Below are positions 3,435-34,004 of a stretch of 64,000 nt of DNA, piece by piece; within the stretch, counting starts at the first letter, position 1, and each line of letters begins with the position of its first letter. This stretch comes from Devosia ginsengisoli (GTDB taxonomy: Bacteria > Pseudomonadota > Alphaproteobacteria > Rhizobiales > Devosiaceae). The stretch covers positions 1-64,000 of the forward strand of contig NZ_JANQAJ010000004.1 of NCBI RefSeq assembly GCF_024707105.1, read 5' to 3'. Both the position numbers and the translations under genes were made by a program. The notes under the pieces were generated by a model. The model made no database searches. It was not told the origin of the DNA and worked only from the letters and a program-made list of their open reading frames with translations.

Positions 3435-5903
<2,469 letters not shown>

Positions 5904-11232: not shown

Positions 11233-11586
11233 TCAGCCGAAAATGGGACGAACCTCGATTTCGCCCTCCCAGCCAGGCCAATGCTCGGTATGCAGGTTCG
11301 CGAACCGCACCGCCCAGTCCATCGCCGCTTCCATATCAGGCACCTCATAGACGGCATAGCCGCCCACCAGTTCCTTGCTCTCGGCAAACGGCCCGTCGGT
11401 GACGATCACCTTGCCACTGCGAATATTGATGAAGGCGCTCTGCTCCTTGCCCATCAGCCCGCCCTGCGTCACCAGCACCCCGGCCGCCTCGGCATCCACG
11501 CCCAGTTGCCCGATCGCCTGCATCAGTGCCATCGGTGGCGCACCGGCCCCGGCCTTGGTCGTCTTGACCAGCGTCATGACCTGCAT
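11233..11586 (-). CDS. YCII-related (DGPF domain) protein
   Basis: Small cytoplasmic protein of 117 residues in the YCII/DGPF family, an alpha-beta barrel fold related to muconolactone isomerase-like enzymes; its reaction is not established. The signature VTDGPFAESKELVGGY lies in the middle, and the N-terminus is MQVMTLVKTTKAGAG. The start at 11586 has GGAG about 8 bases upstream; the open frame continues to 11703 but without family resemblance. Such genes often sit next to ECF sigma factors, but none is adjacent here; the neighbour is the divergent nitrite operon leader. Confidence 0.88.
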   Translation of the reverse strand: MQVMTLVKTTKAGAGAPPMALMQAIGQLGVDAEAAGVLVTQGGLMGKEQSAFINIRSGKVIVTDGPFAESKELVGGYAVYEVPDMEAAMDWAVRFANLHTEHWPGWEGEIEVRPIFG

Positions 11587-11830
11587 CGTCTTTCTCCTTC
11601 TCTTCCAGGCCCATCCGGCCCTGCCTCCGCGACGAAGCACACTGTGCGGATTCGACAACGACACAAGATAACGCAACTGCGCAATTGGTGACCGAAAGCG
11701 CATACACGCCTATTTTTTGCGCAGTTTGACAATCGATTGAGCGCCCACCCCGCCTGCACGTCACCGGTTCGGTCGGCGAGGCACCCCCGTAAACCATTGC
11801 CCTATAAGCCTAATTCTTCCGTCCCTCGTT

Positions 11831-11847
11831 TTGGCACGCTTCCTGCT
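11831..11847 (+). promoter_or_regulatory. Candidate sigma-54 (RpoN) promoter of the nitrite operon
   Basis: TTGGCACGCTTCCTGCT matches the -24/-12 consensus YTGGCACG-N4-TTGCW at almost every position, with the invariant GG and GC exactly 10 bases apart. Only the first T of TTGC (here C) and position 9 deviate. Transcription would begin near 11858, about 25 bases before the leader RNA hairpins and 160 bases before nirB. Nitrogen-assimilation genes are classic RpoN/NtrC targets, which supports the call. No convincing enhancer site was identified. Confidence 0.72.
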
Positions 11848-11883
11848 TTGTAGGATTTGCGGCACTCCGGTGCCATCGCATTC

Positions 11884-11978
11884 GGTGTCCAATGTCGGGC
11901 ACCACACAGGCAAAGCTGCCAACTGACAAACGCTTCGGTCTTCGGACCAGGCGTGTCGGTTGGCAGCTTTTTTGTTTT
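11884..11978 (+). promoter_or_regulatory. Putative NasT-type ANTAR leader RNA with overlapping intrinsic terminator
   Basis: Hairpin P1 (11884-11903) is a 7-bp stem GGTGTCC/GGGCACC with the hexaloop AATGTC. Hairpin P2 (11909-11920) is GGC/GCC with the hexaloop AAAGCT. Both loops have A at position 1 and G at position 4, the defining feature of ANTAR-protein RNA targets. P2 shares bases with the left arm of a long terminator: AAAGCTGCCAAC at 11912-11923 pairs with GTTGGCAGCTTT at 11959-11970, followed by a T run to 11978. P2 and the terminator cannot both form, which gives antitermination logic. P2's stem is short, so it is the weaker element. NasT/NasS genes are not in the window. Confidence 0.68.
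11912..11978 (+). terminator. Rho-independent terminator in the nirB leader (attenuator)
   Basis: A 12-bp perfect stem (AAAGCTGCCAAC/GTTGGCAGCTTT) extended by GACA/TGTC and CGC/GCG pairs, with an inner GGTC-TTCG-GACC hairpin, is followed by TTTTTTGTTTT. It lies 40 bases upstream of nirB on the coding strand, so it would stop transcription before the operon unless prevented. See the overlapping leader entry for the proposed switch. Confidence 0.82.
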
Positions 11979-12015
11979 CACGGCTGCCCGGCAGCGGAGT
12001 GGGAGAAATACATCG

Positions 12016-14463
12016 ATGACCGAACGCCTCGTCATCATTGGTGCCGGCATGGCCTCTGGCCGCGCGCTCGAACATATCTTCGAAGACGCCCCCGGCCGGT
12101 TCGACGTCACCCTGTTCGGCGCCGAACCGCGCGGCAATTACAACCGGTTGATGCTCTCCCCGGTCCTGGCAGGCGAGAAGGACTACGAGCAGATCATCAC
12201 CCACGATGCCGCCTGGTACGCGGAGCATGGTGTTCACACCCGCTTTGGCGAAACCGTCACCGCCATCGACCGCGAGCGCAAGCTGGTCATCTCCAGAAGC
12301 GGCGAAACGCCCTATGACAAGCTGATCGTCGCCACCGGCTCGGCCCCCTTCATCATCCCCCTGCCCGGCAAGGACCTGCCCGGCGTCATGGCCTTCCGCG
12401 ACCTCGACGACGTGAACCGCATGGTCGATGTCTCCCGGCGTACCGGCGCGAAGGCCGTGGTCATCGGCGGAGGCCTGCTTGGCCTCGAAGCCGCCGCGGC
12501 CCTGCGCGCCCGCGGCATGGATGTGGTCGTGCTCCATCTCATGGGCCATGTCATGGAGCGCCAGCTCGATCCGGCTGCCGGCTACCTGCTGCAGCGCGAC
12601 CTCGAAGCCCGCGGCATCAAGGTTCACTGCAAGGCGCAGACCAAGGCCATTCTCGGCGAGACCAGCGTCGAGGCCGTCGCCCTCGAGGACGGCACCGTCT
12701 ACGGCGCCGATATCGTGGTCATGGCCGTGGGCATCCGCCCCGAAGTCCGCATCGCCGTGGATGCCGGCCTGCATGTCGAGCGCGGCATCGTGGTCAACGA
12801 CCAGATGGTCACCTCCGACCCGGACATCCTGGCGCTGGGCGAATGCGTCGAGCATGAGCGCATTGTCTACGGCCTCGTCGCCCCGCTCTACGATCAGGCC
12901 AAGGTACTGGCCAAGACCCTGGCCAAGGTGGACGCCGCCTTCCGCCCGGTCCAGACCGCCACCCAGCTCAAGGTCACCGGCGTCTCCGTCTATTCGGCCG
13001 GCGATTTCGCCGAGGCCGAAGACCGCAACGAGATCGTGCTGCGCGACGCCACTTCGGGCGTCTACAAGCGCCTCGTGCTCAAGCAGGACAAGGTCATCGG
13101 CGCCGTCCTCTATGGCGAAACCGGCGACGGCCCGTGGTTCTTCGACATGATCCGCAAGGGCACCGACACCAGCGAAATGCGCGACACGCTGATCTTCGGC
13201 CAGGCCTATCAGGGCGGCTCTCCCCTCGACCCGATGGCTGCCATCGCCGCCCTGCCCGACGATGCCGAAATCTGCGGCTGCAATGGCGTCTGCAAGGGCA
13301 CGATATCAGGCGCGATAGCGTCCAAGGGCCTCACCACGCTCGATGGCGTCCGCGCCCATACCAAGGCCTCCGCCTCCTGCGGCTCCTGCACCCATCTGGT
13401 CGAACAGCTCCTCCACGCCACCCTGGGCGACGCCTACAACCCCGCCGCCGTGCAGCCCATCTGCCCCTGCACCGAATATGGTCACGACGACGTCCGCCGC
13501 CTCATCATCGCCAAGGGCCTCAAATCCATTCCATCGGTCATGCAGGAACTGGAGTGGAAAACCTCCTGCGGCTGCGCCAAGTGCCGTCCGGCCCTCAATT
13601 ACTACCTCGTCTCCGATTGGCCGGGCGAATACGAGGACGATGGCCAGTCCCGTTTCATCAACGAGCGCGTCCACGCCAATATCCAGAAGGACGGCACCTA
13701 TTCCGTCGTGCCCCGCATGTGGGGCGGCATGACCAACCCCAAGGAATTGCGCGCCATCGCCGATGTCGCCGACAAGTTCCAGATTCCCGCCGTCAAGGTC
13801 ACCGGCGGCCAGCGCATCGACCTGCTCGGCGTGAAAAAGGAAGACCTCCCCGCCGTCTGGGCCGATCTCAATGCCGCCGGCATGGTCTCGGGCGCCGCCT
13901 ATGCCAAGGGCCTGCGCACGGTCAAGACCTGCGTCGGCTCCGACTGGTGTCGCTTCGGCACCCAGGATTCCACCGGCCTCGGCATCCGCCTCGAAAAATT
14001 CATGTGGGGTGCCTGGACTCCGGCCAAGGTCAAGCTCGCCGTCTCCGGCTGCCCGCGCAACTGCGCCGAAGCCACCTGCAAGGATATCGGCGTCGTCTGC
14101 GTGGATTCCGGCTACGACATCCATTTCGCCGGCGCCGCCGGCCTCGACATCAAACCCACCGAGCTCCTTTGCCACGCCGATACCGAGGATGAAGCCCTCG
14201 AGATCATCGTCGCCCTCACCCAGCTCTACCGCGAGCAGGGCCGCTATCTCGAGCGCATCTACAAATGGGCCAGGCGCGTGGGCAAGGAATCCATAACAGC
14301 CAATGTCGTTACCGACCGCGACAAGCGCCGCGCCTATTACGAGCGCTTCGTCTACGCGCAGACCTTCGCCCAGGTCGATCCCTGGCAGGAACGCGTCAAC
14401 GGCAAGGACGCCCACGAATTCGCCGCCCTGGCCGACTTCGGCATGCCCGTAGCGGCAGAATAG
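12016..14463 (+). CDS. nirB: Assimilatory nitrite reductase [NAD(P)H], large subunit
   Basis: Catalyses six-electron reduction of nitrite to ammonium with NAD(P)H in the cytoplasm. The 815-residue protein starts with an FAD/NAD(P) domain (IIGAGMASGRALEHIF and the second GGGLLGLEAAAALR). BFD-type [2Fe-2S] cysteines follow: CGCNGVC near 419 and CGSC near 455, then a second Cys cluster CPC/CGCAKC around 484-520. The siroheme/[4Fe-4S] ligands are in CVGSDWC (about 638) and CPRNC (about 678). The ATG at 12016 has GGGAGA upstream. It is first in nirB-nirD-transporter-PP2C/kinase, 11 bases from nirD, and is preceded by the RpoN promoter and leader described separately. Confidence 0.97.
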   Translation: MTERLVIIGAGMASGRALEHIFEDAPGRFDVTLFGAEPRGNYNRLMLSPVLAGEKDYEQIITHDAAWYAEHGVHTRFGETVTAIDRERKLVISRSGETPYDKLIVATGSAPFIIPLPGKDLPGVMAFRDLDDVNRMVDVSRRTGAKAVVIGGGLLGLEAAAALRARGMDVVVLHLMGHVMERQLDPAAGYLLQRDLEARGIKVHCKAQTKAILGETSVEAVALEDGTVYGADIVVMAVGIRPEVRIAVDAGLHVERGIVVNDQMVTSDPDILALGECVEHERIVYGLVAPLYDQAKVLAKTLAKVDAAFRPVQTATQLKVTGVSVYSAGDFAEAEDRNEIVLRDATSGVYKRLVLKQDKVIGAVLYGETGDGPWFFDMIRKGTDTSEMRDTLIFGQAYQGGSPLDPMAAIAALPDDAEICGCNGVCKGTISGAIASKGLTTLDGVRAHTKASASCGSCTHLVEQLLHATLGDAYNPAAVQPICPCTEYGHDDVRRLIIAKGLKSIPSVMQELEWKTSCGCAKCRPALNYYLVSDWPGEYEDDGQSRFINERVHANIQKDGTYSVVPRMWGGMTNPKELRAIADVADKFQIPAVKVTGGQRIDLLGVKKEDLPAVWADLNAAGMVSGAAYAKGLRTVKTCVGSDWCRFGTQDSTGLGIRLEKFMWGAWTPAKVKLAVSGCPRNCAEATCKDIGVVCVDSGYDIHFAGAAGLDIKPTELLCHADTEDEALEIIVALTQLYREQGRYLERIYKWARRVGKESITANVVTDRDKRRAYYERFVYAQTFAQVDPWQERVNGKDAHEFAALADFGMPVAAE

Positions 14464-14474
14464 GGAGATCACTC

Positions 14475-14807
14475 ATGAGCGACTGGATCGAGATCGGCAC
14501 TATTGACGCCATCCCCCGCCGCGGCGCCCGCTGCGTCAACACCCCGGCCGGAAGGATCGCGGTGTTCCGCACCCAGGAAGACCAGGTCTTCGCCATCGAA
14601 AACCGTTGCCCGCACAAGCACGGCCCCCTCAGCGAAGGCATCGTCCACGGCGCCTCCGTCACCTGCCCCTTGCATAATTGGGTCTTCGACCTCGCCACCG
14701 GCCAGGCGCTCGGCGCCGACGAAGGCCAGGTCCGGACTTACCCGATCGACCTCGTCGATGGCCGCATTTTCATGGCGTTCGAAAACGCCCTGGTCGCCGC
14801 CGAATAG
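14475..14807 (+). CDS. nirD: Nitrite reductase [NAD(P)H], small subunit (Rieske-type)
   Basis: Small partner of NirB, 110 residues, with a Rieske fold. It keeps the full cluster-ligand pattern: Cys45-x-His47 (NRCPHKH) and Cys64-x2-His67 (TCPLHNW). Some NirD proteins lack these ligands, so a bound [2Fe-2S] cluster is plausible here. The ATG at 14475 follows GGGAGA and lies 11 bases after the nirB stop, indicating translation as part of one operon. The nitrite transporter gene follows after 40 bases. Confidence 0.95.
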   Translation: MSDWIEIGTIDAIPRRGARCVNTPAGRIAVFRTQEDQVFAIENRCPHKHGPLSEGIVHGASVTCPLHNWVFDLATGQALGADEGQVRTYPIDLVDGRIFMAFENALVAAE

Positions 14808-14847: not shown

Positions 14848-15681
14848 ATGGCCTACGTCATACCAACCGAATTTGTGACCAAGATGATCGACGCCGGCGA
14901 GGCCAAGGTCTTCATGTCCACCCGCGACACACTGATCCGCGCCTATATGGCCGGCGCCATCCTGACATTGGCCGCAGCATTCGCCGTCACCGTCAACGTG
15001 CAGACCGGCCAGCCGCTCGCCGGCGCCATCCTCTTCCCGGTCGGCTTCTGCCTGCTCTATCTCATGGGCTTTGACCTGCTGACCGGCGTCATGACGCTGG
15101 TCCCCCTCGCTCTCATCGACAAGCGCCCCGGTGTCACCCTGGCCGGCCTGTTCCGCAATTGGGGCCTGGTCTTTCTGGGCAATTTCGGTGGTGCCTTCAC
15201 CGTCGCGGTGCTGATGGCGATCACCTTCACCTTCGGCTTCAGCCAGGAGCCCAACGCCGTGGGCCAGGCCATCGGCCATATCGGCGAAGGCCGCACCGTC
15301 GGCTATGCCGAGCACGGCGCCGCCGGCATGCTGACCCTGTTCGTCCGTGGCGTGCTCTGCAACTGGATGGTCTCGACCGGTGTCGTCGCCGCCATGATGT
15401 CCACCTCGGTTTCCGGCAAGGTGATCGGCATGTGGATGCCCATCATGCTGTTCTTCTACATGGGCTTCGAGCATTCCATCGTGAACATGTACCTGTTCCC
15501 CTCGGGCCTCATGCTGGGCGGCCAGTTCTCCATCATGGACTACCTGATCTGGAACGAAATCCCCACCATCCTTGGCAACCTGGTCGGCGGTCTGGCCTTC
15601 GTTGGCCTGGCCCTCTATGCCACCCACAGCACCAGGGCCACTCAGCGGGCGGCCTCGCATAAGTTTGTCCCTGCCGAATAA
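14848..15681 (+). CDS. nirC: Formate/nitrite transporter family channel, probable nitrite importer
   Basis: FNT-family pentameric membrane channel, 277 residues with six hydrophobic segments. The conserved central-His region FFYMGFEHSIVNM is present, as are the half-helix breaker GNFGGAF and LCNWMV. Starting at the ATG at 14848, it has a strong ribosome site AAGGAG 7 bases upstream. Its place directly after nirBD makes nitrite the likely substrate; formate channels are the alternative within the family. The protein is inner-membrane and would bring nitrite to NirBD. Confidence 0.9.
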   Translation: MAYVIPTEFVTKMIDAGEAKVFMSTRDTLIRAYMAGAILTLAAAFAVTVNVQTGQPLAGAILFPVGFCLLYLMGFDLLTGVMTLVPLALIDKRPGVTLAGLFRNWGLVFLGNFGGAFTVAVLMAITFTFGFSQEPNAVGQAIGHIGEGRTVGYAEHGAAGMLTLFVRGVLCNWMVSTGVVAAMMSTSVSGKVIGMWMPIMLFFYMGFEHSIVNMYLFPSGLMLGGQFSIMDYLIWNEIPTILGNLVGGLAFVGLALYATHSTRATQRAASHKFVPAE

Positions 15682-15731: not shown

Positions 15732-17459
15732 ATGAGCGCCAGCCTCGCCATTTCCCTCGGCCAGCATTCCGACAAGGGTCTGAAGCCCACCAATCAGGAT
15801 TTCCATGGTGCACTGATCCCCAGCCAGCCGGCGCTCGACCTCAAAGGCATCGCCATCGCTTTGGCCGATGGCATTTCCACCAGCGCCGTCGGCTCCATCG
15901 CCGCCCAGACGGCCATCAAGAGCTTCCTCACCGACTATTACGGCACCTCGGATACCTGGCCGGTCAAGACATCAGCCCATCGCGTCATCTCGGCCACCAA
16001 TGCCTGGCTCCACGCCCAGACCCGCGCGCAAGGCGCCGACGACGTCGATAGCGGCTATGTCTGCACGCTCAGCATCCTCGTGCTCAAGTCACGCGCCGCG
16101 CATATCTTCCATATCGGGGATTCCCGCATCTATCGCTTGGCCGGCCGCTCTCTGGAGCAACTTACCACCGACCACCACGTCCCAGCCGCCCCCAACCGCT
16201 TCTATCTCGGCCGCGCTCTGGGCATCGGCAGCAATATTGAAGTGGACTACCGCAGCGTACCGGTCGGCGTGGGCGATGTCTTCGTGCTCACCACCGACGG
16301 CGTCCACGAATATGTCAATGGCGCCACCATCGCCAACGCTATCCAAGCCAGTCCCGACGATCTCGACGCCGCCGCCCGCCACATCGTCACCAGCGCTTTG
16401 CACAATGGCAGCCCTGACAATCTCACCATCCAGATCGCCCGCATCGATGCCCTGCCCGGCGGCGAACCCGCCGATTTCCTCGGCCAGTCCGCCGACCTGC
16501 CTCTGCCGCCACCCATCGAGCCGGGCATGGATTTCGACTTCTACCGCATCCTGCGCCCGCTCCATGCCAATGCCCGCAGCCAGGTCTTTCTCGCCCAGGA
16601 CCATGCCGATGGCCGCCTCGCCGTCATCAAGGTCCCCGGGTTGGACATGCGCGACGACCCGGCCTTCCTCCGCCGCTTCATGATGGAAGAATGGATCGCC
16701 AGCCGCCTCAACAGCGCCCACACACTCCGCATCCACCGGCAGGACCGCAAGCGCCACTACCTCTATCTCGCCACCGAATATGTCGATGGCCAGACCCTGA
16801 CCCAGTGGATGGCCGACAATCCCCGGCCCGATCTCAATACCGTCCGCGACCTCATCGAACAGATTGCCCGCGGCCTCAACGCCTTCCACCGCCAGGAAAT
16901 GGTCCATCAGGACCTGCGTCCCGACAACATCATGATCGACAAAACAGGCACGGTGAAGATCATCGATTTCGGCTCCACCAAGGTCGCCGGCGTCATCGAG
17001 GCCCAGCCCATGGGCGACGATGCCGAGCTCGGAACCGTGCAATATGCCGCGCCCGAATATCGTATCGGCGATACCGGCACCGATCGGTCCGACCAGTTCT
17101 CCCTCGGCGTCATCGCCTACCAGATGCTGACCGGCCGGCTGCCCTACGGAGCCCACGCCGCCATGCTGCGTAGCCGCGCCGATCTCGCCCGCCTGCTCTA
17201 CCACCCCGCCGCCACGCCGGATTTCGACATCCCCGACTGGGTCGACCGCGCCCTCGAAAAAGCCGTCCAGCCGGACCCCGTCAAGCGCTACGAAGCCCTC
17301 TCCGAATTCACCTACGACCTCCGCCACCCCAACCCGGAATTCGCCACGCTGCCACCGCGGCCGCTGCTGACGCGCAACCCGGTTCGCTTCTGGCAAATGC
17401 TGTCGCTAACCCTGGCCGGCACGGTCCTCGTGCTGCTGGGCTTGCTGATCGGGGGATAA
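15732..17459 (+). CDS. Bifunctional PP2C-type phosphatase / serine-threonine protein kinase
   Basis: A 575-residue fusion. Residues 1 to about 245 form a PP2C phosphatase: NQDFHG, ADGISTSAVG, HIGDSRIYRL, TTDGVHEYV and SPDNLTI carry its metal-binding Asp residues. From about 270 a Hanks-type kinase follows: VIKVPG (catalytic Lys), HQDLRPDN near residue 391, IDFG near 412, AAPEYR and DQFSLGVIAYQMLTG. The Gly-rich loop is degenerate (LHANARSQVF). The last 25 residues are a single membrane anchor. It begins 50 bases after the nitrite channel gene. A kinase gene next to nirBD and a nitrate transporter is also known in Pseudomonas aeruginosa, so a role in regulating nitrate/nitrite assimilation is likely but unproven. 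Confidence 0.92.
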   Translation: MSASLAISLGQHSDKGLKPTNQDFHGALIPSQPALDLKGIAIALADGISTSAVGSIAAQTAIKSFLTDYYGTSDTWPVKTSAHRVISATNAWLHAQTRAQGADDVDSGYVCTLSILVLKSRAAHIFHIGDSRIYRLAGRSLEQLTTDHHVPAAPNRFYLGRALGIGSNIEVDYRSVPVGVGDVFVLTTDGVHEYVNGATIANAIQASPDDLDAAARHIVTSALHNGSPDNLTIQIARIDALPGGEPADFLGQSADLPLPPPIEPGMDFDFYRILRPLHANARSQVFLAQDHADGRLAVIKVPGLDMRDDPAFLRRFMMEEWIASRLNSAHTLRIHRQDRKRHYLYLATEYVDGQTLTQWMADNPRPDLNTVRDLIEQIARGLNAFHRQEMVHQDLRPDNIMIDKTGTVKIIDFGSTKVAGVIEAQPMGDDAELGTVQYAAPEYRIGDTGTDRSDQFSLGVIAYQMLTGRLPYGAHAAMLRSRADLARLLYHPAATPDFDIPDWVDRALEKAVQPDPVKRYEALSEFTYDLRHPNPEFATLPPRPLLTRNPVRFWQMLSLTLAGTVLVLLGLLIGG

Positions 17460-19923: not shown

Positions 19924-21270
19924 TTACTCTTCCCGGAACGCTCGCACGATCTGGTCGGTGAAGGGTTTGACGAAATAAGCGATCGCCACCTGCTCATCGG
20001 TCTGGACGAAAACATCCACCGGCATGCCGGGAATAAGCCCGCGCTCGCCCAGTTGGGACAGGTCTCCCTTCACTTCGGCCTCGGCGAGATAATAGCTCTG
20101 CCCGCTCTGCGGGTCGCTGGTCGGGGCCGCCGATACCCGCGATACGATTGCCGGGATTTCCGGGGTCGTTCGCTGGTTGAACGCGCTGAAGCGAAGCTTG
20201 ACCTCCTGCCCCAGCAGGATCTGGTCGATGTCATGCACCGCGACCTGGAACTCGATCTTGAGCTCCGCGTCTGCGGGAACGATAGTGAGCAGGCGTTCCG
20301 CCGGGCTGATGACCCCGCCTAGCGTGGTCACCGACAATTCGTTCACCGTCCCCGTCACCGGCGCACGGATGAGCGTCCGGTCCAGCCGGTCTTCAACCTC
20401 GGCCAGGCGATCGCGCAATTCCGTGATATTGGCGGCGACGGCACGCAATTCCCGCTGGGCATCGGTATAGGCCATGTCGTCGATGGCCAGGATTTGCAGC
20501 TTGACCTCACTGATCCGGGCATTGGACCGCGCGATATTGGCGGTCAGCTCGCCCTGCGAGCCGAGCATGCGTGCCAATTCGCGGTCCGCCACGTTGAGCC
20601 GGGTCGTTTCGATCAGCGCCTTCTCCGACAGGGCGCCAATGCGAACCCGCTCGTCGCGCGCCAGCGCCAGTTCATCGGCCAGTGCCGCGGCCTGGAATTG
20701 CAGTCCGCCCACCTCCTCCTCCAGTTGGGCCACCTGAAGCTCCAACTGTTCGCGTCGCGACTGCCGGTTGCGCGCCGTGCTGTCGAACAATTGCTGCTCG
20801 CCCTGCCGGATGAGATCGGCATTGGGATAGGCGGTCAGGAAATCGTCGGGAAACGCAATCGTCCCCGCCGCATCGCGCTCGGCGATCAGCCGCGCCTGGC
20901 GCGCCACCAGTTCGGCCAGTTGCCCCATCAGGATCGAGCGCTCCGTTCTGATGGGAATGTCTTCGAGCCGCAGCAGCACATCGCCGGCGACCACGTTCTG
21001 CCCCTTTTGCACATCGATCGCGGCAATCACCCCGCCATCCAGATGCTGCACGACCTTGACATTCTCCGCCACCAGCACCGTTCCGCTGGAAATGACGGCG
21101 CCGGACAGCTTGGCCGTCGCGGCCCATCCGCCTATGCCGCCCAGCAGCAGGATAGCGGCAATACTGCCCGTGACCACCCGGCCACGCAGCGAAAAATCCG
21201 ACATCTTGACCTTGCTGCGCGAGCGCTCGGCGCGCGGATAGGGTGCCGTCATGTCCATGATACTCATCAC
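19924..21270 (-). CDS. Type I secretion membrane-fusion (HlyD-type) adaptor protein
   Basis: Periplasmic adaptor linking the ABC exporter to a TolC-like outer-membrane channel; 448 residues. One N-terminal membrane segment (VVTGSIAAILLLGGIGGWAA) is followed by a biotinyl-lipoyl half (GGVIAAIDVQKGQNVVAGDVLLRLED), a long helical hairpin (about 110-290) and the second lipoyl half ending IRAPVTGTVNELSV. The C-terminal part has GMPVDVFVQTD, typical of PrtE/HlyD proteins. It starts 14 bases after the stop of the RTX gene, so it is translated in the same operon. No outer-membrane TolC gene is present in the window. Confidence 0.94.
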   Translation of the reverse strand: MMSIMDMTAPYPRAERSRSKVKMSDFSLRGRVVTGSIAAILLLGGIGGWAATAKLSGAVISSGTVLVAENVKVVQHLDGGVIAAIDVQKGQNVVAGDVLLRLEDIPIRTERSILMGQLAELVARQARLIAERDAAGTIAFPDDFLTAYPNADLIRQGEQQLFDSTARNRQSRREQLELQVAQLEEEVGGLQFQAAALADELALARDERVRIGALSEKALIETTRLNVADRELARMLGSQGELTANIARSNARISEVKLQILAIDDMAYTDAQRELRAVAANITELRDRLAEVEDRLDRTLIRAPVTGTVNELSVTTLGGVISPAERLLTIVPADAELKIEFQVAVHDIDQILLGQEVKLRFSAFNQRTTPEIPAIVSRVSAAPTSDPQSGQSYYLAEAEVKGDLSQLGERGLIPGMPVDVFVQTDEQVAIAYFVKPFTDQIVRAFREE

Positions 21271-21284
21271 CGTCTCCCCGCGCG

Positions 21285-23051
21285 TCAGGCCACCTGATGA
21301 TCGATCATCATGGGCAACTGGACGCCCCTCAGCGTTATGGAAATCTCGTAGAAATCGTTGCGGTCGACATCCGCCTCGATGACGGTGTGGTCGGCATCGT
21401 CGTAATAGGCGTGGATGACGCGGACCGGCAGGTTGGCCTCGAAGCCCGCTTCCAGCTCGTCATAGATTTTGCCGAACCGCTCCTCTTCCAGTTGTTCGGC
21501 GCGCGACGAGAGTTGGTATTCGGCGACATGAACGCGGTCGCCCACCACGAAATCCAGTATCTCGAACATCAACTGCCGGCTGAGGAGCGGGGTTTCCTGG
21601 CTCACCGTGAAGATGAAGAGATCGTCGCCCGGCCCGCCCGTGATAATCGCCGTCGTGTCGCTGAATATGAGCGTATCGTTGCCCGACCCGCCGATCACCG
21701 CCTCGACATTTTCGTAGAGATCCTCGCCGATTTCCTCGCTCCAGGCCACGCCCGCTTCGAAGTCGAGATGGATGTCGGCCGAGAATTCCGAATAATCGAG
21801 CGTATCGTGGCCATCTCCGCCATCGATACGGTCATTGCCCGCATCGCCGGTAATCGTGTCGTCCCCGGCGCCGCCATTGAGCAGGTCGTCGCCCTCCGCT
21901 CCCGACAGGGTATCGTTGCCCGACCCGCCATCCACGGCATCATCGCCCGGCCCGCCTGCCAATTGATCGTCGCCGTCACCGCCCTCGATGACATCGTCAC
22001 CCTCATCGCCGCTGATACTGTCATTGCCGGCGCCGCCAATGAGCACGTCATCGCCCTCATTGCCTTCGAGCACATCGTCGCCGTCCCCGCCATAGAGCGT
22101 GTCATTGCCCGCCTCGCCAAAAAGACGGTCATTGCCGGCACCGCCGCCGATCACATCATTGCCGCGCCCACCGAAGATCACATCGTCGCCCAGACCGCCG
22201 AACAGTTGGTCATTGCCATCGCCGCCGCGGATATGGTCGTCGCCATCGCCGCCGGTGACGATATCGTTGCCGGCACGGGCATCGATGATGTCGTCGCCTT
22301 CAAGCCCGTCGATATTGTCGTCCCAGGGCGTACCGACAAAGGCATCGTCCGATGGCGTCAGCAGCACGCTGTTCTGCACCACGTCCAGCATGGCCGTCTG
22401 CACGGCCGCAAGCAGGCCGTCGCTGATCGCGTAGCTGAAGGTGATGACCCCGAACATGCCGGGAAGCGTCACGAAGGACCAGCCGGCGCTGACCTGCACC
22501 AATGTGCCACCCGTGGCCGTGATGTTGTTGATGGTGAGGCTGTCGCCATCTGGATCGGAGGCACCCAGCAGCAGGTCGGAAAGCCCGATCAGCACCACCT
22601 GCCCCGCAAACACCTCGCGCAGCCGCACCGGCCCGACCGTGACCGGAACACGATTCCCTGGCGCGGTCTCGTCGTCATCATCGTCGTCCCCGTCCGGCGG
22701 CGCCGGCTCTTCCCCCTCGTCATCGCCGTCAGGCCCGGTTTCCGCGTCGACCACCGGCTGGGCGGATGCGACAATGGCCGGGCTGGACGACCCGGGCGCC
22801 CGGAAACCCGCGCCGCGCGGTAGCGGGACATTGTCGTTCTGCGGCTGATAGTTGAAGGCTGCGGGAAAGAAGGCCGCCACCTGCGGCCCCAGATAGTCGA
22901 AATGGGTCGCCGCATAGTGGAAGGACATCGGGTCGGTCAGCGACAATCCGCTGCTCCAGCCGGAGCGCGCACCGCCGGCCGCGGCATCACTCCCCTCATC
23001 GCCCATACCGCCCGCCATGGCCTCATCGATATCGGCTTCCCCGAGCTCCAC
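21285..23051 (-). CDS. RTX (hemolysin-type calcium-binding repeat) secreted protein, main body of the gene
   Basis: Formally 588 residues from a GTG at 23051. An acidic low-complexity linker (residues ~105-135) precedes a cadherin-like/tandem-type domain, then about 17 nonapeptide RTX repeats (GGxGxDxux, such as GGDGDDHIRGGDGNDQLFGG) from about residue 240 to 415, and a C-terminal domain ending in the likely secretion signal. Ca2+ binds the repeats after export. The GTG start is unlikely to be the true one: the frame extends upstream to a stop at 23115-23117, and a second fragment (23115-23285) looks like its N-terminus. See the frameshift findings. It lies between the exporter ABC gene and the HlyD gene, so it is probably a substrate of this system. 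Confidence 0.86.
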   Translation of the reverse strand: MELGEADIDEAMAGGMGDEGSDAAAGGARSGWSSGLSLTDPMSFHYAATHFDYLGPQVAAFFPAAFNYQPQNDNVPLPRGAGFRAPGSSSPAIVASAQPVVDAETGPDGDDEGEEPAPPDGDDDDDDETAPGNRVPVTVGPVRLREVFAGQVVLIGLSDLLLGASDPDGDSLTINNITATGGTLVQVSAGWSFVTLPGMFGVITFSYAISDGLLAAVQTAMLDVVQNSVLLTPSDDAFVGTPWDDNIDGLEGDDIIDARAGNDIVTGGDGDDHIRGGDGNDQLFGGLGDDVIFGGRGNDVIGGGAGNDRLFGEAGNDTLYGGDGDDVLEGNEGDDVLIGGAGNDSISGDEGDDVIEGGDGDDQLAGGPGDDAVDGGSGNDTLSGAEGDDLLNGGAGDDTITGDAGNDRIDGGDGHDTLDYSEFSADIHLDFEAGVAWSEEIGEDLYENVEAVIGGSGNDTLIFSDTTAIITGGPGDDLFIFTVSQETPLLSRQLMFEILDFVVGDRVHVAEYQLSSRAEQLEEERFGKIYDELEAGFEANLPVRVIHAYYDDADHTVIEADVDRNDFYEISITLRGVQLPMMIDHQVA

Positions 23052-23114
23052 GATGACGCCGGACGGCGCACCACCATCCTCGGCAGCTTCATCGCCCCCG
23101 GCGGGGGTGACCTG

Positions 23115-23285
23115 TCATGCGCCTGCGCCGTGAAGGCGCTTTTGAGAAAAAAACGCGATCCCGGTGACGATAAGCGCGAAATAAACCGGGAGGCGCGACG
23201 TCTTTTCCGGCGTGTTGAACTCCAGCCGCTTGCGGGAGTCTTCCGGTTCGGGCTGCTGACGATTGGCCTTGCCTTCGATGATCAT
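23115..23285 (-). pseudogene. Detached N-terminal fragment of the RTX gene
   Basis: The ATG at 23285 overlaps the stop of the upstream ABC gene (ATGA), suggesting translational coupling and marking the real start of the RTX gene. It reads 56 residues (MIIEGKANRQQPEPEDSRKR...), including one hydrophobic segment, LPVYFALIVTGIAFF, then stops at 23115. If the run of seven A at 23147-23153 were six and one base were added in the G5/C5 runs around 23095-23107, the frame would pass through FFLKSAFTAQAHDRSPP and join the acidic start of the RTX body. Whether this is decay, programmed shifting or sequencing error cannot be settled here. Confidence 0.62.
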
Positions 23286-25032
23286 GCCAATTCTCCCGTT
23301 TCGGCCAGAGGCTCCACCACCTTTGGCACGTTGGCATTGGCTTGCCGCTGGCCCGCAACGATTTCCTCTTTGGGCCCGAAGGCGGTCATGCGGCCATTCT
23401 GGATGACAGCCACCATATCCACCTCGGCCAGGATCGAAGGCCGGTGCGCCACGATCACCGCAATACCGCCGCGGGCGCGGATCTGCCTTATCGCCAGGTT
23501 CAGGGCCTGTTCGCCCTCGGCATCGAGAAAGGCATTGGGCTCATCCATGATGACCATGAACGGGTCGCCATAAAGCGCCCGCGCCAGGCCGATGCGTTGC
23601 CTTTGCCCCGCCGACAATGCCGTCCCCATCGGCCCAAGCTGGGTGTCGTAGCCATCAGGCAGCCGCACGATCATCTCATGCACCCCCGCCGCCTTGGTCG
23701 CGGCGACGATCGCCCGCGCATCGCGCTGCGGCGCCAGGCGGGTAATATTCTCCACGATCGTGCCGTCGAGCAGCGCCACGTCCTGCGGCAGGTAGCCGAC
23801 ATATTCGCCGATCTTTTCCTCGTCCCACTGCGTCAGGTCGGCGTCATCCAGCCTTATGGCGCCGCGCAGCGCCGGCCAGATACCGGTCAGTGCCCGCACC
23901 AGCGTCGTCTTGCCACCGCCGCTCGGCCCGATCACGCCAAGCCCCTGGCCCGCTTTGAGCTCGAATGCGACCTCGGTCAGCAGCACCCGTCCCGATGCGG
24001 GGGCCGCGACGGTGACCTTGTCGACCTTGAGCGAGTTGGTCGGCGCCGGCAAATCCAGCGGTTTGGTCATGCCGGCCAGGGCGACCATCGTATCGCGCAG
24101 GCGCTTGAACGCCTGCCGCGCCGCGACCACGCCCTTCCAGTTGCCGATGGCCATGTCGATGGGCGCCAGCGCGCGCGACGCCGCGACGGACACCGCGATA
24201 ATGGCGCCCGCCGACATCTGCCCCTGAATGGTCAGGTAGGCCCCCGTCCCCAGCAGCGCCGATTGCAGCACCATGCGCAGCACGCGCGAAAAGGCGCCGA
24301 ACGTGCCCACCACATCGCTGGCGCGCGTTTGCAGCGTCAGGTGATCCTGGTTTGCAGTGTTGAAGCGCGCCACGGCGCGCCCGGCAAAACCCATAGCCTT
24401 GAGAACATCGGCGTTGCGGGCATTGGAATCGGCAATGGCATTGCGGGTCAGGTGCGCCTGCTGCGCCGCCGAAGCCAGCTTGCGCGACTTGAGCTCGGTC
24501 CAGACCGTCAGCAGCGTGAGCACGATCGCCCCGCCCAGCGTCATCGCGCCCAGTACCGGATGCAAGAAATAGACGAAGAGGATATAGAGCGGCACCCAGG
24601 GCAGGTCGAACAGGGCCACCGGCCCCTGGCTGCCCATGAATGAGCGGATGGTATCGACATCGCGACCGCGTTCGAGGGCCTCCCCGTCGAAAAGCCGAAG
24701 CGGGGCATGTCGACGCTGACCCGATGGGCAATGGGCGCCAGCAGCCGGTCGAACCGGGCGCCGATGCGCACCAGCAACTGGCTGCGAATGATGTCGAACA
24801 CGCCCTGGAACAGATAGAGCCCGATCACCAGAACGGAAAGAGCGGCCAGCGTTGGTACGCTGCCGCTGGTCAGGGCTCGATCGTAGATCTGCAGCATGTA
24901 GAAGGAGCCGGTCAGCGCCAGCACGTTGATGATGCCGGAAATCCAGAACAGGAAAACGGCAATGGCCTTGAATTCCTTGCGCAGCATCTCGTTGCCGCGG
25001 TGTTCGGCCATCGCCTTTGCGGTCAATGCCAT
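23282..25032 (-). pseudogene. Type I secretion ABC exporter (PrtD/HlyB-type ATPase), frameshifted
   Basis: Two overlapping frames together make one exporter of about 583 residues, the PrtD size. The first (from ATG 25032, RBS GAGGGG) has membrane segments VFLFWISGIINVLALTGSFYM and LSVLVIGLYLFQGV, then MPRFGFSTG. The second, from about 24690, continues EALERGRDVDTIRSFMG, ALFDLPWVPLYILF, Walker A GPSGGGKTT, signature LSAGQRQR, and Walker B MVIMDEPNAFLD. They are joined by adding one base to the C4 run at 24682-24685. As written, only a truncated ATPase half (451 residues from 24637) and a 163-residue N-terminus are made. The nucleotide-binding domain is otherwise intact. It is the exporter for the adjacent RTX proteins. 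Confidence 0.83.
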
Positions 25033-25104
25033 GATGTCAGCCCCTCGTTGGATCGATAATGGGCACGAGACCCGGCTGGCAGGGCCAGCCGGGTCGGCTC
25101 GAGG

Positions 25105-28100
25105 CTAGAGAACGAAGTTGCTCTCGGTCAGCGCATGGTTGCCGGCGATGCTGATGCGGAATTCAGGGACGTTGTTTCCCGCCGTGTCGCCCGAGATGAC
25201 GGTATATTCGCCGTCCTCGCGTGTTTCATGCGTCACCACGATCTGGCCGGGGGCCGTCGTCGCCTGGCCGCTTTCCAGGGTGAACGTGTCATTCCCTGCG
25301 CTTTCGCCATTGGCATCGATGCCGGACAGGTCGATCTTGTCACCCGGTTCGAACCCCCGGATCGTATCGCCATTCGCCGCCGCCGCCGATCCGAAGACGA
25401 ACACATCCTCGCCCTGGCCGCCGTCCACCACGTTGACGGCATTGCTCATGGTGATCGTGTCGTTCCCCGCGCCCGTCGTGACGTTTTCAATGCCCCAGAG
25501 CGTGTCGGCGCCACTCTGGCTGCTGACCGCGCTACCGCGGCCGCCGACACCGGTTCCCAGGTCGACCGTGGCATCGACCGTCAGAAACCCCATATCGAGC
25601 ACGTCGATGCCGTCATCGGCGGAGACGTCACCACCATAATAGGTGTCGTCGCCATCATTGAGCGAAGCCACGATCGTGTCATTGCCGGTGCCGCCGAAGA
25701 CCAGGTCATTGCCTTCCCCGCCTTCGAGCAGGTCATTGCCATGCTGGCCGAACAGCCGATCCTCACCGGCGCCACCATCCAGCATGTCGTGATTGCCACC
25801 GCCGAACAGGTCATCATCGCCGTCTTCACCCAGCAGGATATCCCGCCCGGCCTGGCCATCGACCAGGTCGTCCCCGGCGCCGGCCCGGACCACGTCGGCC
25901 CCGGCACCCGTTACGATGAAGTCGGTCCCGGCATAGCCGAACACCAGATCCCCGGCCGACGTCCCGACCAGGACATCATGCTGCGGCGTGCCGACGATCT
26001 GGCCCAGCGCAGCCGGGGCATCGTCGTCATCGTCATCATCATAGTCGTGGTCGTCATCATCATCTTCTTCCTCGTCGTCATCATGGGCGAGGTAGCTGAC
26101 GCTGCTGGCTCCCAGGGTGCGGGTGGTAACGCCATCGTCGCCGGTGGTCTCGGTATAGTCCGAGCCATCGGGCATTTCGATCACGTCCTGCGGCCGCAGG
26201 GTCCCGATAATGGTGTCATTGCCGCCATTGGACTTGAAGACGATCCGATGCGCCGATGACAGCGAGGATATGTCGACAATGTCGTCACCCGCGGTGCCCT
26301 CGATGGTGATGGTGTTGAAGTCCAGGCTCGTCGCGGTGAAGTCGCCGATCACGATGATCTGGTCGCCCCCACTATTCCCGCCGCCGGCGCCGCCGGGCGT
26401 GGTCACATCAAGGGCATTGACGCCGATCTCCTCGATATTGTCGAGTTCGGCAATGACCGACGCCAGGTTGGTGCCGTTCCGCGTGATCACGATCTCGGTA
26501 TTGGCATTGAGGGCGGCGCCATTATTGCCGGCCACCGCATCCCAGGCAGCCCGCGTATAGATGCGGAAGACCTCGGCCTCAGCCACACCATTGAGCTGGT
26601 AAGTGTCAGTGTCGGCACCGCCATCAACGAAGTCGCGGCCACCGGAATCGCTTGTGTGATTGATCACATCATTGCCGGCCCCGCCATTGATGAAGTCGCG
26701 GTTTGCGCCACCATCGATTGTGTCGTCGCCAAGCCCACCATCCAGCGTGTCTCCACCGACATCACCATTCATGGTGTCGTTGCCGGCCCCACCGAGAATT
26801 TGGTCAGCCGCACCACCACCATTCAGCACGTCATCGCCGTCACCACCGTCGAGCGTATCGGCCCCGCCGCCGCCCGATAGCGTGTCCGCTCCGTCGTTGC
26901 CGTAGAGCTGATCCGATCCGTTGTTGCCCGCGCCGATATCGTCACCATCAGTGCCATTGAGGATGTTGTTGGCAGCATTGCCGACCCAGTTGACGCCGGT
27001 CGGTCCGGTCGCTCCGGACGTCACGGTTTCCACATTCCCGGCGCCGTCGGTGAAGGTCACCACCACCCGGAGCTGCAACCCGGCCTGGGCGCCGAAGAGC
27101 TGCCCGCCCGGGTTGGCCGGCGTGAACGTCGCCGCCGTTGCCCCGGCAATATTCGCCCATGTCGTGCCATCGGGCGATGACTGCCATTGATAGGAAAATG
27201 CACCCAGTCCGTTGCCATCGCCTATGGAACTGGTATCGGCGCTAAGTTGCTGGCCCTCGGTTGGAGTCAGATCGCTGACGACAGGGGCTCCCGTCGCGGC
27301 CACATTGCCGCCCAAGGTCACATCAGCGAACTTCAGCGCCTCGATATTCCACAGCGTATCGACGCCGTCGGATTCAAGACCGTCAGAGACATTCGTGTGG
27401 GCGACCGTTACCGAGCCATCGTCATTGTTGGTGATCGTGTACGCGGCCAGGACATCGGCGAATACCGCCGTATCGACATCGTCGCTCCCGTCAGCCGTCC
27501 GGATCGTCCGGACGATGCTCAACTGGCCGGGATTGATCGTGCCGGCAAACATGGCTGAGGCGAGCTCGGTCATGCTCTTGTGCAGGGAGATGGGCGTGCC
27601 CTGGTGATTGGTGTCGCCGGGCGCAAAGACGCCGATCTGCACGTCGAGCCACTTGTCGCCGTCGATGATGTCGTCGCCCATCTGGCCGGTAATCATATCG
27701 CTCCCGTCGCCACCCAGGATGATGTCACCGGCCGAGAAGGAGGTCACGCCGGCCCCGAGCAATTCCTGCAGCCCGTCGATAAGGGCGATGCCCTCCGCAT
27801 TGAGCGCGCTGCCCTGATAGCCTTCCAGCGGCGTCACATTGTTGACCGGATGGAACGGCAGCCGTTCCTCGGCAAGGATATTGGAGCCCTTGAGGATATC
27901 GTTGCCGGCCGAGCCCGACAGCCCCTCTATTGACTGGTACTCATCCAGCGCCGCGTTCTCGGGGATGATCGGCGCTTCGTCGAACACGATCGGGATCGAC
28001 AGGTCGGCATTGACGCCGGTAGTGCCGATCGCGCTGTCCTTGTAGGTCGCCCAGTCGAAGCCCGACATGCCCACCATCTTGCCGCGGCCGGGGCTGCCGA

Positions 28101-31100
28101 CCATGATGTCATCACCGCCCTCGCCGATGAACTCGTCGAACCCGCCGTCGCCGATGAACACGTCGTGCCCGTTGATGCTGTCATGGGCGAAGATTTCATC
28201 GAAATTGTCGCCGGGGGCGCCGTCGAAGGTACCGGTTTCGATCCAGTCATTGCCTTCATTACCGAGGATGCGCTCGGCATTGCGGTTGCCGAAGATGAAG
28301 TCGTTGCCCTCGCCGGCAAACACTTCGGATCCTTCGTCAGTGCCCAGGAAGATAAAGTCCTGTCCCGCGCCACCCATCACCAGGTCGAGGCCCGGACCGG
28401 CATGGACGACGTCATTGCCGTCGCCGGCCTTGATATTGTCGTCGCCGCCTGCATCGACGATGATGTCGTCACCATCCCCGCCATTCAGGATATCGTTGCC
28501 GAAACCGCCATCGAGCCGGTCATTGCCGGCATCGCCGAACAGCGTATCGTCGCCGATACCGCCGGTCAGCACATTGTCCGCGGCCGTACCGCCCAGAACA
28601 ACGTGCTCGTCGCCATTGTAGCGCAGGTTGTTGGGTCCGCTGCGCACGACCAGTTGCGTCAGGATGCCCGAACCCACCGGGTCGAGGCTGTCGAGCAGGC
28701 CATCGCCATCCGTATCGTTGAACTGCTTGGTCTGGTCGACTTCCAGGATCAGCCCGGGCGTCGAGAACACGTCCGACGGCAGATGCGTCGCATCGGTATT
28801 GCGCATGGCCATGGCGGCGAAGGAGTTGTTCTCCATCTCGCCGAACAGGTGCAGCCCGTCGAGCCGCTGCAGATAGTAGAAGCGGTCACCGCTCTGCAGC
28901 TTCTCCATCTGGATTTCGAAGACGAAGTTGAAGGTCGAGCCCAGCATGCCGCCGAACGGCATGGTTTCCTCGGCCAGGCCGCCGATCCACAGGTCGACAG
29001 TCTCGAGCCCGCCGAGGCTGTTCGCGACCCCACCGGCATAAGGCCCGCTCGCATTCAGGAACGCCAGCCGGTCGGCCGGAACCACCAGCCCGCCGACCGA
29101 AACGCCGGTAATGATGGTCAGGGCCGCGTCGCGCTTGCCGTCGATCGTGGTCTGCGACGTGATCAGCTCATGGTCGCCATAGGCCGCGATGAAGTTGATG
29201 ATCGAGGCCTCGTTCTTCAGATGGCTCGCGAAATCCACCCAGCTCTCATAGGGCTTGAGCAGGATATTCTGCTGCGTCGCCTCGTAGAATTCGCGGCGCG
29301 CCTCGTTGAGCGAAGGCACGCCCGTATCACGGCCGCGGGCGAGATTGATGGTCGCGAGATCGAGCGGCAGGCCCAGCAGGTTGTTGCGGAGCGCGCTGGT
29401 GACGAATTCGTCGATCTGGTTGCCTGCCTGGCGCGTCATGCCGCGGATGATGGCCCCGGCCGCGATATCGGCATCGACGGTCGAAGCGCCACCATTGTTC
29501 TGGAATTCCAGCGGATTGAGGAAACCTTCGATCAGGCTGATCTGGTCGGACGTCATCGTCGGATCGAACCGGTCGATCGTCTCGGTCAGCATCGAGTGGC
29601 CGAAGCGATAGACGACATGGGCGAACTCGGCCACGATCGAGGGGTCGATGGTGACGTCATAGCCGTCAGGCACCAGGAAGGCATTGATCGCCGGCTGGAC
29701 CTTGCGGGCGAATTCCTCGAAGACGAGGTGCTGATACTGCATCTCGGTGCCGAACTTGGCCGCCTGGAACAGGCGCGCGCCATCCCACACCAGCCCGGCC
29801 GTGCTGGCCGGCACGGTGGCCACATCGGCGATGAGCCACTCATTGAGGAACGCCACGGCCTCGGCCTGGCTGGCGCCATTGGCCAGCATCGCCTGGGCGT
29901 CGGCAAGGGTCACCGCCTTGGTATGCTCGACCAGCCGGTTGTGCTCGGAATGGAATACGTGGTGGACCGCTGTCAGCCCGATATTCTCGTTCACCCTGCC
30001 GTCGCCGGCCATGAAATGGGCGTCGAGCAGTTCATTGTCATAAAAGCCGTCGGTCGCCGAGCCGTCCCCATTGCCGAGGCCGATCTCGATATCGCCATCC
30101 TCAAGCCCGTCAGGCACGGCGCTATGGGCAATATCGGCAAGGAAGGCGTGCCCGGTCTGGATGGCGCCCACGATCGAGATACCCAGTCCGCCATTGGCAG
30201 CCGGATTGCCCTCCACCAGCACCGGCGGATCGCTCGGCGTGGGGCCGGGGAAGACCACTTGCGGGAAGCCGTTCGGTCCGGGAATGAAATTGCCGTATTC
30301 ATCCGTGGCCAGCAGCGGGACATTGCCCACGTCCTGGTCGCGCAGCCAGATGCCCAGCAGGTCGCTGGCCTGTTCCTTGAGATCGGCCCAGGTGGCCATG
30401 CCGCTATTGCTGCCCTCGATCAGATGACCGGTATTGACCGGGTCGCCGGCCCCGTTGAACTCATATTGCCGCAGGAAGACCTGGTGCGAGGCGTGCGAGG
30501 CATAGGTCTGGTTCTGGTCGACAAACGCGGTCGTGGTGTTGAGCGCCTCCCCGTTCTCGTCCAGCGTCGCCCGGGTCAGCACCATGAAATTGGTGCTGCT
30601 GCCGGGCACGTAAAGCGGGTCATCCGGCATCAGCGGGATGAACACCGTGCCGGCGCCTCCTTTGGCGACCAGGTCGAGGCCATGGTCGAAGAACTGGCCG
30701 AATAGCGTGAACCACGAGTTGAACGGCGCTGACAGGCCCTCGTCGGGCGCGACATTCTTGATCTGCACATTGTCGCCTTCCAGCACGATGCCATTTTCCG
30801 TCAGCAAGGCATCGAGCGGTCCGCGCACGGCCGTCAGTGCGGCGGTGGCGTCGTTGAATGCCGCAAGCGCGTCGGCCGCCGCCTGCTGGGCCGCCGGATC
30901 GCCGGGATTGGCCGCCGCAGTGGTCGCCGCATTGAAATAGGCGACCTTTGTCTGGCTGACGGCCAGGAATTCGGCCTCGATCAGTTCATAGGCGGCCGTA
31001 ATGGTCCCCAGCGCCGTCATTTCGTCGGCCGGAGCAACCATCCCGCCACGCTGCAACCCGGTCAGGATGGCCGAAGGATTGCCCAGCGTCTGGTCGACGA

Positions 31101-31473: not shown

Positions 31474-31849
31474 TTTCAATCCCCTCTGACGCGCGGCGCG
31501 GCTCTGCATGGGCAGGCACGTCGGCTTGTTTCGCCACGGCAGATGCCATGGCTCTCGACACTGGAGGGGATACTGCCCAACTGCGCGGCGGAGCGTCAGG
31601 TCAGAACGTCGGGTCAATCAGCGGCATGAAGGTCTGATGAAAAACAAGACCTCCGGGCACACCAACCCTGTACTTTAGGTCAGTATGGCACCGGCCCACT
31701 CATATCTATTGCCGCATGCCTTCGCGTTGCGCCGGATATTCTCGGGGCTATTTCGCCAATCCGGCCAATCTGGATAATCAACGCAAATTTTAGTATAAGT
31801 ACTTGGATGCAGACCGTGAAACAATCACTGCTGCGGCGTGGGGTAGGTG
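31474..31849. other. Divergent intergenic region between the RTX peroxidase and the kinase
   Basis: This 376-base gap separates two divergent starts and should hold both promoters. It is less GC-rich toward the kinase side (31660-31830). I see a tandem 9-mer pair GCCAATCCG-GCCAATCTG at 31755-31772 but no clear consensus promoter or operator, and no gene. Confidence 0.4.
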
Positions 31850-33928: not shown

Positions 33929-34004
33929 TGGTGGGCCCGGCTGGATTCGAACCAGCGACCAATCCGTTATGAGCGGACGGCTCTAACCGCTGAGCTACAG
34001 GCCC
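33929..34004 (-). tRNA. tRNA with CAU anticodon, probably tRNA-Ile2 (lysidine type)
   Basis: A complete 76-nt cloverleaf on the minus strand: acceptor GGGCCTG/CGGGCCC, D-arm GCTC/GAGC, anticodon stem GTCCG/CGGAT with the loop CTCATAA (anticodon CAT), T-arm GCTGG/CCAGC, and an encoded CCA. The acceptor pairs C4-G69 and C5-G68 fit the tRNA-Ile2 that TilS converts to lysidine, rather than elongator Met, but sequence alone does not exclude Met. Confidence 0.92.

Follow-up and report, generated by a model that had tools for sequence, protein, structure and literature searches.

The region at 11832–11978 of the window (the whole stretch of 64,000 nucleotides of Devosia ginsengisoli DNA analyzed here) very probably comprises a dual-hexaloop leader behind a promoter sequence of the sigma-54 type, and this leader is predicted to act as the NasT-controlled antitermination leader of a presumed nirB-nirD-transporter-kinase operon. 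From this architecture and from precedent in other bacteria, we infer that the operon is under double control, once at initiation and once at antitermination. A preliminary description of the DNA had read the architecture as NasT antitermination combined with nitrogen-dependent initiation, a reading supported here, as a prediction, by the elements themselves, their conservation, and the presence of genes for NasT, NasS, RpoN, and NtrC-like proteins.

Promoter and leader upstream of nirB

Sigma-54-type promoters are common in nitrogen starvation. In the window, TGGCACGCTTCCTGC at 11832–11846 on the forward strand (TGGCAC-N6-TGC) fits TGG-N10-GC, the sigma-54 (-24/-12) promoter pattern, and +1 would be expected near 11858. 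The genome encodes RpoN, and the domain of sigma-54 activators (enhancer-binding proteins) gave nine matches in it, seven of them strong, with two of the seven looking like NtrC and NtrX (named by eye). With two matches to the pattern in the window versus 1.3 expected, its letters alone are not rarer than chance, so the box counts by its position and conservation: it lies 15–48 nt upstream of the hairpins in all 42 distinct leaders collected from the genus (44 pattern matches, less two within nasA coding sequence). The chance-level number of pattern matches in the window would suit the alternative that transcription starts elsewhere, from a sigma-70 promoter, and that the sigma-54 match is accidental, leaving only the NasT control real. 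Against it stand the placement of the box in 42 of 42 leaders and the result of a simple promoter and terminator scanner (covering sigma-70 promoters and simple stems with 3–8 nt loops), which gave no match in 11500–12300, with 0.3 sigma-70-like sites expected there; we consider this alternative very unlikely. The near-consensus sigma-54 promoter placed upstream of the leader by the preliminary description is thus retained.

Downstream of the box, folding predicts a 5'-terminal hairpin of the leader RNA at 11859–11879, beginning at the expected +1. It is followed by the P1 hairpin (11884–11903), in which the arms GGTGTCC and GGGCACC enclose the hexaloop AATGTC, a 5-nt linker (11904–11908), and the P2 hairpin (11909–11920; GGC-AAAGCT-GCC), with the hexaloop AAAGCT. 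Both loops carry A at position 1 and G at position 4 (A1/G4), and both hairpins were identified from the sequence, a pattern scan, and the relatives. The predicted intrinsic terminator (11912–11978), based on folding and compensatory changes, has a left arm that begins inside the P2 loop, at 11912, a right arm that runs to about 11970, and a T-rich tail that ends at 11978, ahead of the nirB start codon (ATG at 12016). ANTAR-target leaders are defined by two hexaloop stem-loops (PMC3369931), and the sequence features of a dual-hexaloop leader were found, namely a pair of hairpins, each with a stem of 3 bp or more and a loop of six bases, A1 and G4 in both, a short linker, and a second hairpin that is mutually exclusive with an intrinsic terminator (common bases and arm covariation). 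In Enterococcus faecalis, linkers of 5–12 nt are reported to work, those of 3 or 14 nt to harm function, and the 3-nt linker to harm eutP induction (PMC3369931); in the relatives of our leader the linker is about 3–9 nt, some having the 3 nt that harmed eutP.

The leader fold reaches -67.6 kcal/mol (z = -8.3), with 0 of 200 shuffles as good. A scan for the architecture, in which a terminator overlaps the second of two hairpins with six-base loops, gave one match on both strands of the 64 kb, which was this leader, and the same single match was obtained without requiring the loop letters. The shuffle control, which was run with A1/G4 required only, gave no architecture match in 20 dinucleotide shuffles (both strands). 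The P2 stem consists of three G-C pairs only, and in isolation P2 favors a 4-bp stem with a tetraloop (-5.2 versus -4.3 kcal/mol). Between +1 and P1, a 5' fold of -3 kcal/mol or lower occurs in 39 of the 42 genus leaders, with differing sequences and z-scores of about -0.6 to -3.1. The two A1/G4 hairpins of the preliminary description, the overlap of the second with the left arm of a strong terminator, and the position of the leader before nirB were therefore all borne out.

By analogy with characterized systems, nitrogen limitation would lead phosphorylated NtrC and RNA polymerase carrying sigma-54 to start transcription near 11858. As long as nitrite and nitrate are absent, NasT would be kept bound by NasS, so that the terminator would form and set free a leader RNA of about 120 nt. 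Either anion would free NasT from NasS; NasT would then engage the A1/G4 loops, first that of P1 and next that of P2, keeping P2 folded and blocking the terminator, such that the polymerase would reach nirB. Successive binding of two loops is described for EutV (PMC8934654).

Conservation of the leader and its antiterminator in the genus

Nothing in Rfam reached its gathering score at the leader, and the weak matches up to E 10 comprised only sau-19 (19.6 bits) and narK RNA (14 bits). We therefore built a model from the leaders of relatives (R1). The nirB-like genes were looked up in 100 relatives and the own genome, and 21 of the 30 same-genus nirB loci gave a leader under a strict rule that makes no demand on the loop letters; the remaining nine gave none by this rule, some having a leader further upstream or one that the rule missed. 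Initial loop-letter counts had used an anchor demanding A1/G4 in P2, and were repeated without that demand. In the repeat, the P2 loop was A1/G4 in 21/21 leaders and the P1 loop in 19/20 of those scored, the exception (L025) being an alternative hairpin picked by the script and one P1 (L024) being unscored. In a count by stem pattern, three of 31 chosen loci fail (L006, L012, and L024); the recount without a letter demand finds A1/G4 in both loops of L006 and L012, and in P2 only of L024. Conservation of the hexaloops in relatives, on which the preliminary description depended, is thus seen, with A1 and G4 fixed in both loops and the other loop positions varying.

An alignment of 28 leaders was further analyzed for covariation, using shuffles that ignore common ancestry. 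In P1, 14 cells changed on both sides of a pair versus 4.7 in shuffles, and in the terminator arm over P2, 28 did so versus 8.0 (0/500 shuffles reaching the value in either case). These changes fall in two pairs in P1, and compensatory changes occur in 3 of 12 pairs in the terminator arm; the number of both-side pairs and of pair types in P1 and the terminator arm is not above shuffles (311, 260, 355, and 443 of 500 reach it). The three pairs of P2 itself are invariant, so covariation speaks neither for nor against P2. Position 3 of the P2 loop forms AU, GC, CG, and UA combinations with its terminator partner and is unpaired in only 1 of the 28 leaders; it therefore covaries with that partner, indicating that the common bases serve both folds. 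The genus-wide conserved pairs of leader and antiterminator could test how a single loop is recognized by the protein (through positions 1 and 4) and also pairs within the terminator (through positions 3, 5, and 6).

The preliminary description also expected an ANTAR protein and nasT/nasS in the genome. A single ANTAR protein was found at E 0.001, a NasT of 196 a.a. with a receiver-like domain, and directly downstream of its gene lies that of a NasS of 404 a.a. (NMT1/NrtA type), together a putative NasS-NasT system. Both genes lie on another contig than the leader, giving no neighborhood link in the own genome. The closest NasT among named records is that of Devosia submarina (85% identical). 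Upon alignment to 6wsh (chain numbering shifted by 2, by our own count), NasT keeps seven of the eight RNA-contact residues described for EutV (PMC8934654), namely R142, K143, K149, E160, Y164, R168, and M172, with Gln in place of K147.

Across 61 genomes of the genus, including the own, an R1 match of at least 36 bits (a line chosen after the scores were seen) occurs in 41/41 genomes with an ANTAR protein versus 1/20 without, several of the latter being incomplete (Fisher p = 7e-15, ignoring common ancestry). At E 0.01, 12 further non-ANTAR genomes of the genus have weak leader matches of 25.8 bits or less, a range in which chance matches occur in the own genome as well. Here, only the copy in the window matches strongly (62 bits, a score given by construction since R1 was built from leaders including this one, and R1 E-values are rough), with the next at 23 bits. 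Further NasT targets were sought among the 41 matches in this genome at E up to 10, and those of 23 bits or less were treated as chance. R1 was also run on 80 NasT loci from named records (Devosia, Mesorhizobium, Rhizobium, and others), of which 46 gave a total of 50 matches reaching 25 bits (E up to 1.5e-5). These mostly lie 1.4–1.7 kb past the match to nasT, the place where nasS should finish given the gene order of the own genome; the other 34 loci have no match of 25 bits.

Several genomes depart from the common arrangement. The sole non-ANTAR genome with a strong leader (G053, locus L102) has an adjoining nirB broken by stops, an apparent joint decay. A reverse loss is seen in G045 (L104), where nrtABC-like genes, nirB, and nasA are present, with no ANTAR protein and no leader match. 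In G003 (L100) and G017 (L101), the leader precedes a transporter gene of the formate/nitrite family and genes for a NirA-like reductase and a flavoprotein (identities by Pfam for G003 only), and no full nirB match was found.

Two other explanations of the leader can be weighed against this record. If the terminator were a fixed attenuator that lowers nirB expression, with NasT uninvolved and the loops kept for another reason, it would be hard to see why A1 and G4 are fixed while neighboring positions vary, or why a strong leader accompanies the ANTAR protein in every such genome and is found in just one of the 20 others; we regard this as extremely improbable. A less remote, but still unlikely, explanation is that the terminated leader of about 120 nt, produced when nitrogen is limiting, acts on other messages as a small RNA in its own right and controls nirB as just one of its tasks. 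Bounded by a 5' hairpin and a strong terminator, such a short RNA would be stable, the Pseudomonas leader carries an RNA name of its own (NalA; review PMC12830290), and CTCCCAAGACG, an anti-Shine-Dalgarno-like sequence, lies near the RNA 5' end in 18 of the 42 genus leaders (counted by eye). The sequence of the 5' hairpin, however, is not conserved across the genus, and this common loop is absent from the leader in the window. NasT-controlled antitermination remains our preferred reading.

The operon and relatives lacking nasS

The presumed operon comprises four genes on the forward strand, the first of which is nirB (12016–14463), encoding the large subunit of NADH-nitrite reductase (TIGR02374, 877 bits, above the cut-off, and Pfam). 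It is followed by nirD (14475–14807), encoding the Rieske-type small subunit (PF13806/PF00355), a nirC-like gene (14848–15681) for a formate/nitrite-family transporter (PF01226; below the NCBIfam cut-offs for FocA, FocB, and NirC), and a last gene (15732–17459) for a fusion of a PP2C phosphatase and a protein kinase (PF13672 and PF00069). Elsewhere in the window, on the minus strand, 19924–31617 encodes an HlyD-like adaptor, an ABC exporter, and two long proteins whose repeats are rich in aspartate and glycine (by eye), which together resemble a type I secretion locus, and a tRNA gene lies at 33932–34004 (minus strand; Rfam RF00005, 68.5 bits).

Homology searches of the draft genome (98.6% complete) at E 1e-100 gave no relative of the NasA that lies beside nirB in another genome of our set (G005, L038). 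A search with PF00384 gave three molybdopterin enzymes. One resembles NuoG, another looks formate-dehydrogenase/DMSO-reductase-like but stays below every curated cut-off shown, and the third resembles an oxidoreductase of the FdhF/YdeP type. Given that no nitrate reductase was found, the operon looks to be nitrite-only. The same holds for 12 other genomes, such that 13 of the 41 ANTAR genomes of the genus (including the own, G000) keep NasT and the leader without a NasA-type nitrate reductase at E 1e-100, two of the 13 (G037 and G049) being less than 80% complete.

Searches at E 1e-30 gave no nasS anywhere in the genomes of two relatives, G010 and G046. At their nasT loci (L097, about 4512–5233, and L098, about 5172–5804, respectively), nasS is missing between otherwise conserved neighbors and nasT is intact; as in the own genome, an epimerase-like gene lies on one side and MFS and GNAT genes on the other (by eye). 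The leaders of both genomes keep the sigma-54 box, both A1/G4 loops, and the terminator. A tie between NasS loss and a missing 5' hairpin was considered and dropped, as two leaders that lack this hairpin (L074 of G031 and L105 of G049) belong to NasS-encoding genomes. Nor did we see a consistent signal of relaxed selection on NasT upon NasS loss: the receiver part of the G010 NasT is 76% identical to that of the own NasT versus 91% in both G008 and G046, and in G046 it was the ANTAR part that had changed more than the receiver, compared to G008.

In a nasS mutant of Paracoccus denitrificans, activity is described as nitrate-independent yet still ammonium-repressed (PMC5424462), and for this reason the species without nasS may rely on the sigma-54 promoter alone. 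In the own genome, a GGDEF-type gene (by eye) follows the GNAT gene as the third after nasS (L002, 13938–15161, contig C5), and one lies at the same place in G010, though not in G046. Cyclic di-GMP is reported to weaken NasT in Pseudomonas putida (review PMC12830290), which, together with this gene, suggests another possible input to NasT. We tentatively propose, as something possible rather than probable, that the lineage rebuilt a nitrate switch as a nitrite-only one and is now losing the sensor, with NasT in the two nasS-less relatives working alone, either always on (the sigma-54 promoter then deciding) or under another input such as cyclic di-GMP. These two close relatives amount to a natural experiment on NasT without its sensor.

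Rfam narK RNA and known double-control systems

The leader in the window falls outside the Rfam family narK RNA (RF03032), scoring 14 bits against a gathering score of 43.2, but shares much of its architecture. Among 398 genomes of the phylum, narK RNA is matched at E 0.001 in 21 (in six families and nine genera), and in 16 of these the match exceeds the family cut-off. We read 30 (L116–L145) of the 36 listed copies, eight of the 30 being below the family cut-off. TGG-N10-GC occupies model positions 1–14 plus the preceding base in 28/30 copies. P1 loops are A1/G4 in 23/23 of those scored (of 30), mostly AACGGC. In 22 copies, a P2-like loop (mostly AAAGRC, inside the terminator) extends by pairing into a terminator with a T-rich end, A1 being present in 19/22 and G4 in 20/22, some picks being wrong hairpins. 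An ANTAR protein is encoded in 21/21 narK RNA genomes versus 155/398 overall (hypergeometric p = 1e-9, ignoring ancestry), and in eight genomes (e.g., G404, G303, and G458) no more than 240 bases separate the narK RNA from the match to the ANTAR domain. A downstream gene matches NarK, NasS (some with NasT), NasA, NirB, or NrtA at 29/30 loci.

With a sigma-54 box, an A1/G4 P1, a P2 inside the terminator, and an ANTAR protein in the genome, all as for the leader in the window, narK RNA looks like a sigma-54 promoter followed by a NasT-type leader. Merging the Devosia leaders with narK RNA through a sequence model was tried and rejected, as R1 finds only 5/30 narK copies in place at E up to 0.5, one clearly (L128) and four weakly (L122, L123, L126, and L138). 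This architecture would explain narK RNA, which is listed in Rfam only as cis-regulatory, and would make model positions 1–14 part of the promoter DNA, not RNA. The original description of narK RNA is reportedly that of Weinberg in 2017. It lay outside the scope of our literature search, which gave no paper naming 'narK RNA' or 'narK motif', and the link may be stated elsewhere.

Beyond narK RNA, a survey of sigma-54 promoters reports that the targets include ANTAR genes and those for NAD(P)H-nitrite reductase (PMC12316311). In Bradyrhizobium, nirA and a coxS-like gene are predicted to have NasT-type hairpins, and at most NasT-dependent genes the report gives none (PMC6759348). In P. denitrificans, nitrate or nitrite is described to dissociate NasS-NasT, and NasT to bind the nasA leader (PMC3795266); growth on nitrate requires hairpin HI of the leader, and ammonium control acts via Ntr (PMC5424462). 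The same protein pair is encoded in the genome studied here. However, the Paracoccus nasTS genes adjoin nasA in an operon that includes nitrate reductase, whereas here nasTS lie apart from an operon that looks to handle nitrite only. The nasF system of Klebsiella oxytoca, as described in PMC5424462, couples Ntr-controlled initiation to antitermination by the ANTAR protein NasR, the same two levels of control as predicted in the window, but NasR is a one-protein nitrate sensor, whereas here the sensor (NasS) and antiterminator (NasT) are separate.

A close layout is that of nirBD in Pseudomonas, where, according to the review PMC12830290 (citing Romeo 2012 and Nie 2024 as the originals), a sigma-54/NtrC promoter precedes the leader NalA and its terminator is overridden by NasT. 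The window likewise has a sigma-54-type promoter sequence, predicted to act with NtrC, a leader terminator predicted to respond to NasT, and nirBD downstream. Unlike in Pseudomonas, nirBD is followed by the genes for the formate/nitrite-family transporter and the phosphatase-kinase fusion, in a genome in which no nitrate reductase was found. Given that each half of the double-control device, as well as their combination, has precedents, the device is already known in other bacteria, and the nirB leader is a further example of it.
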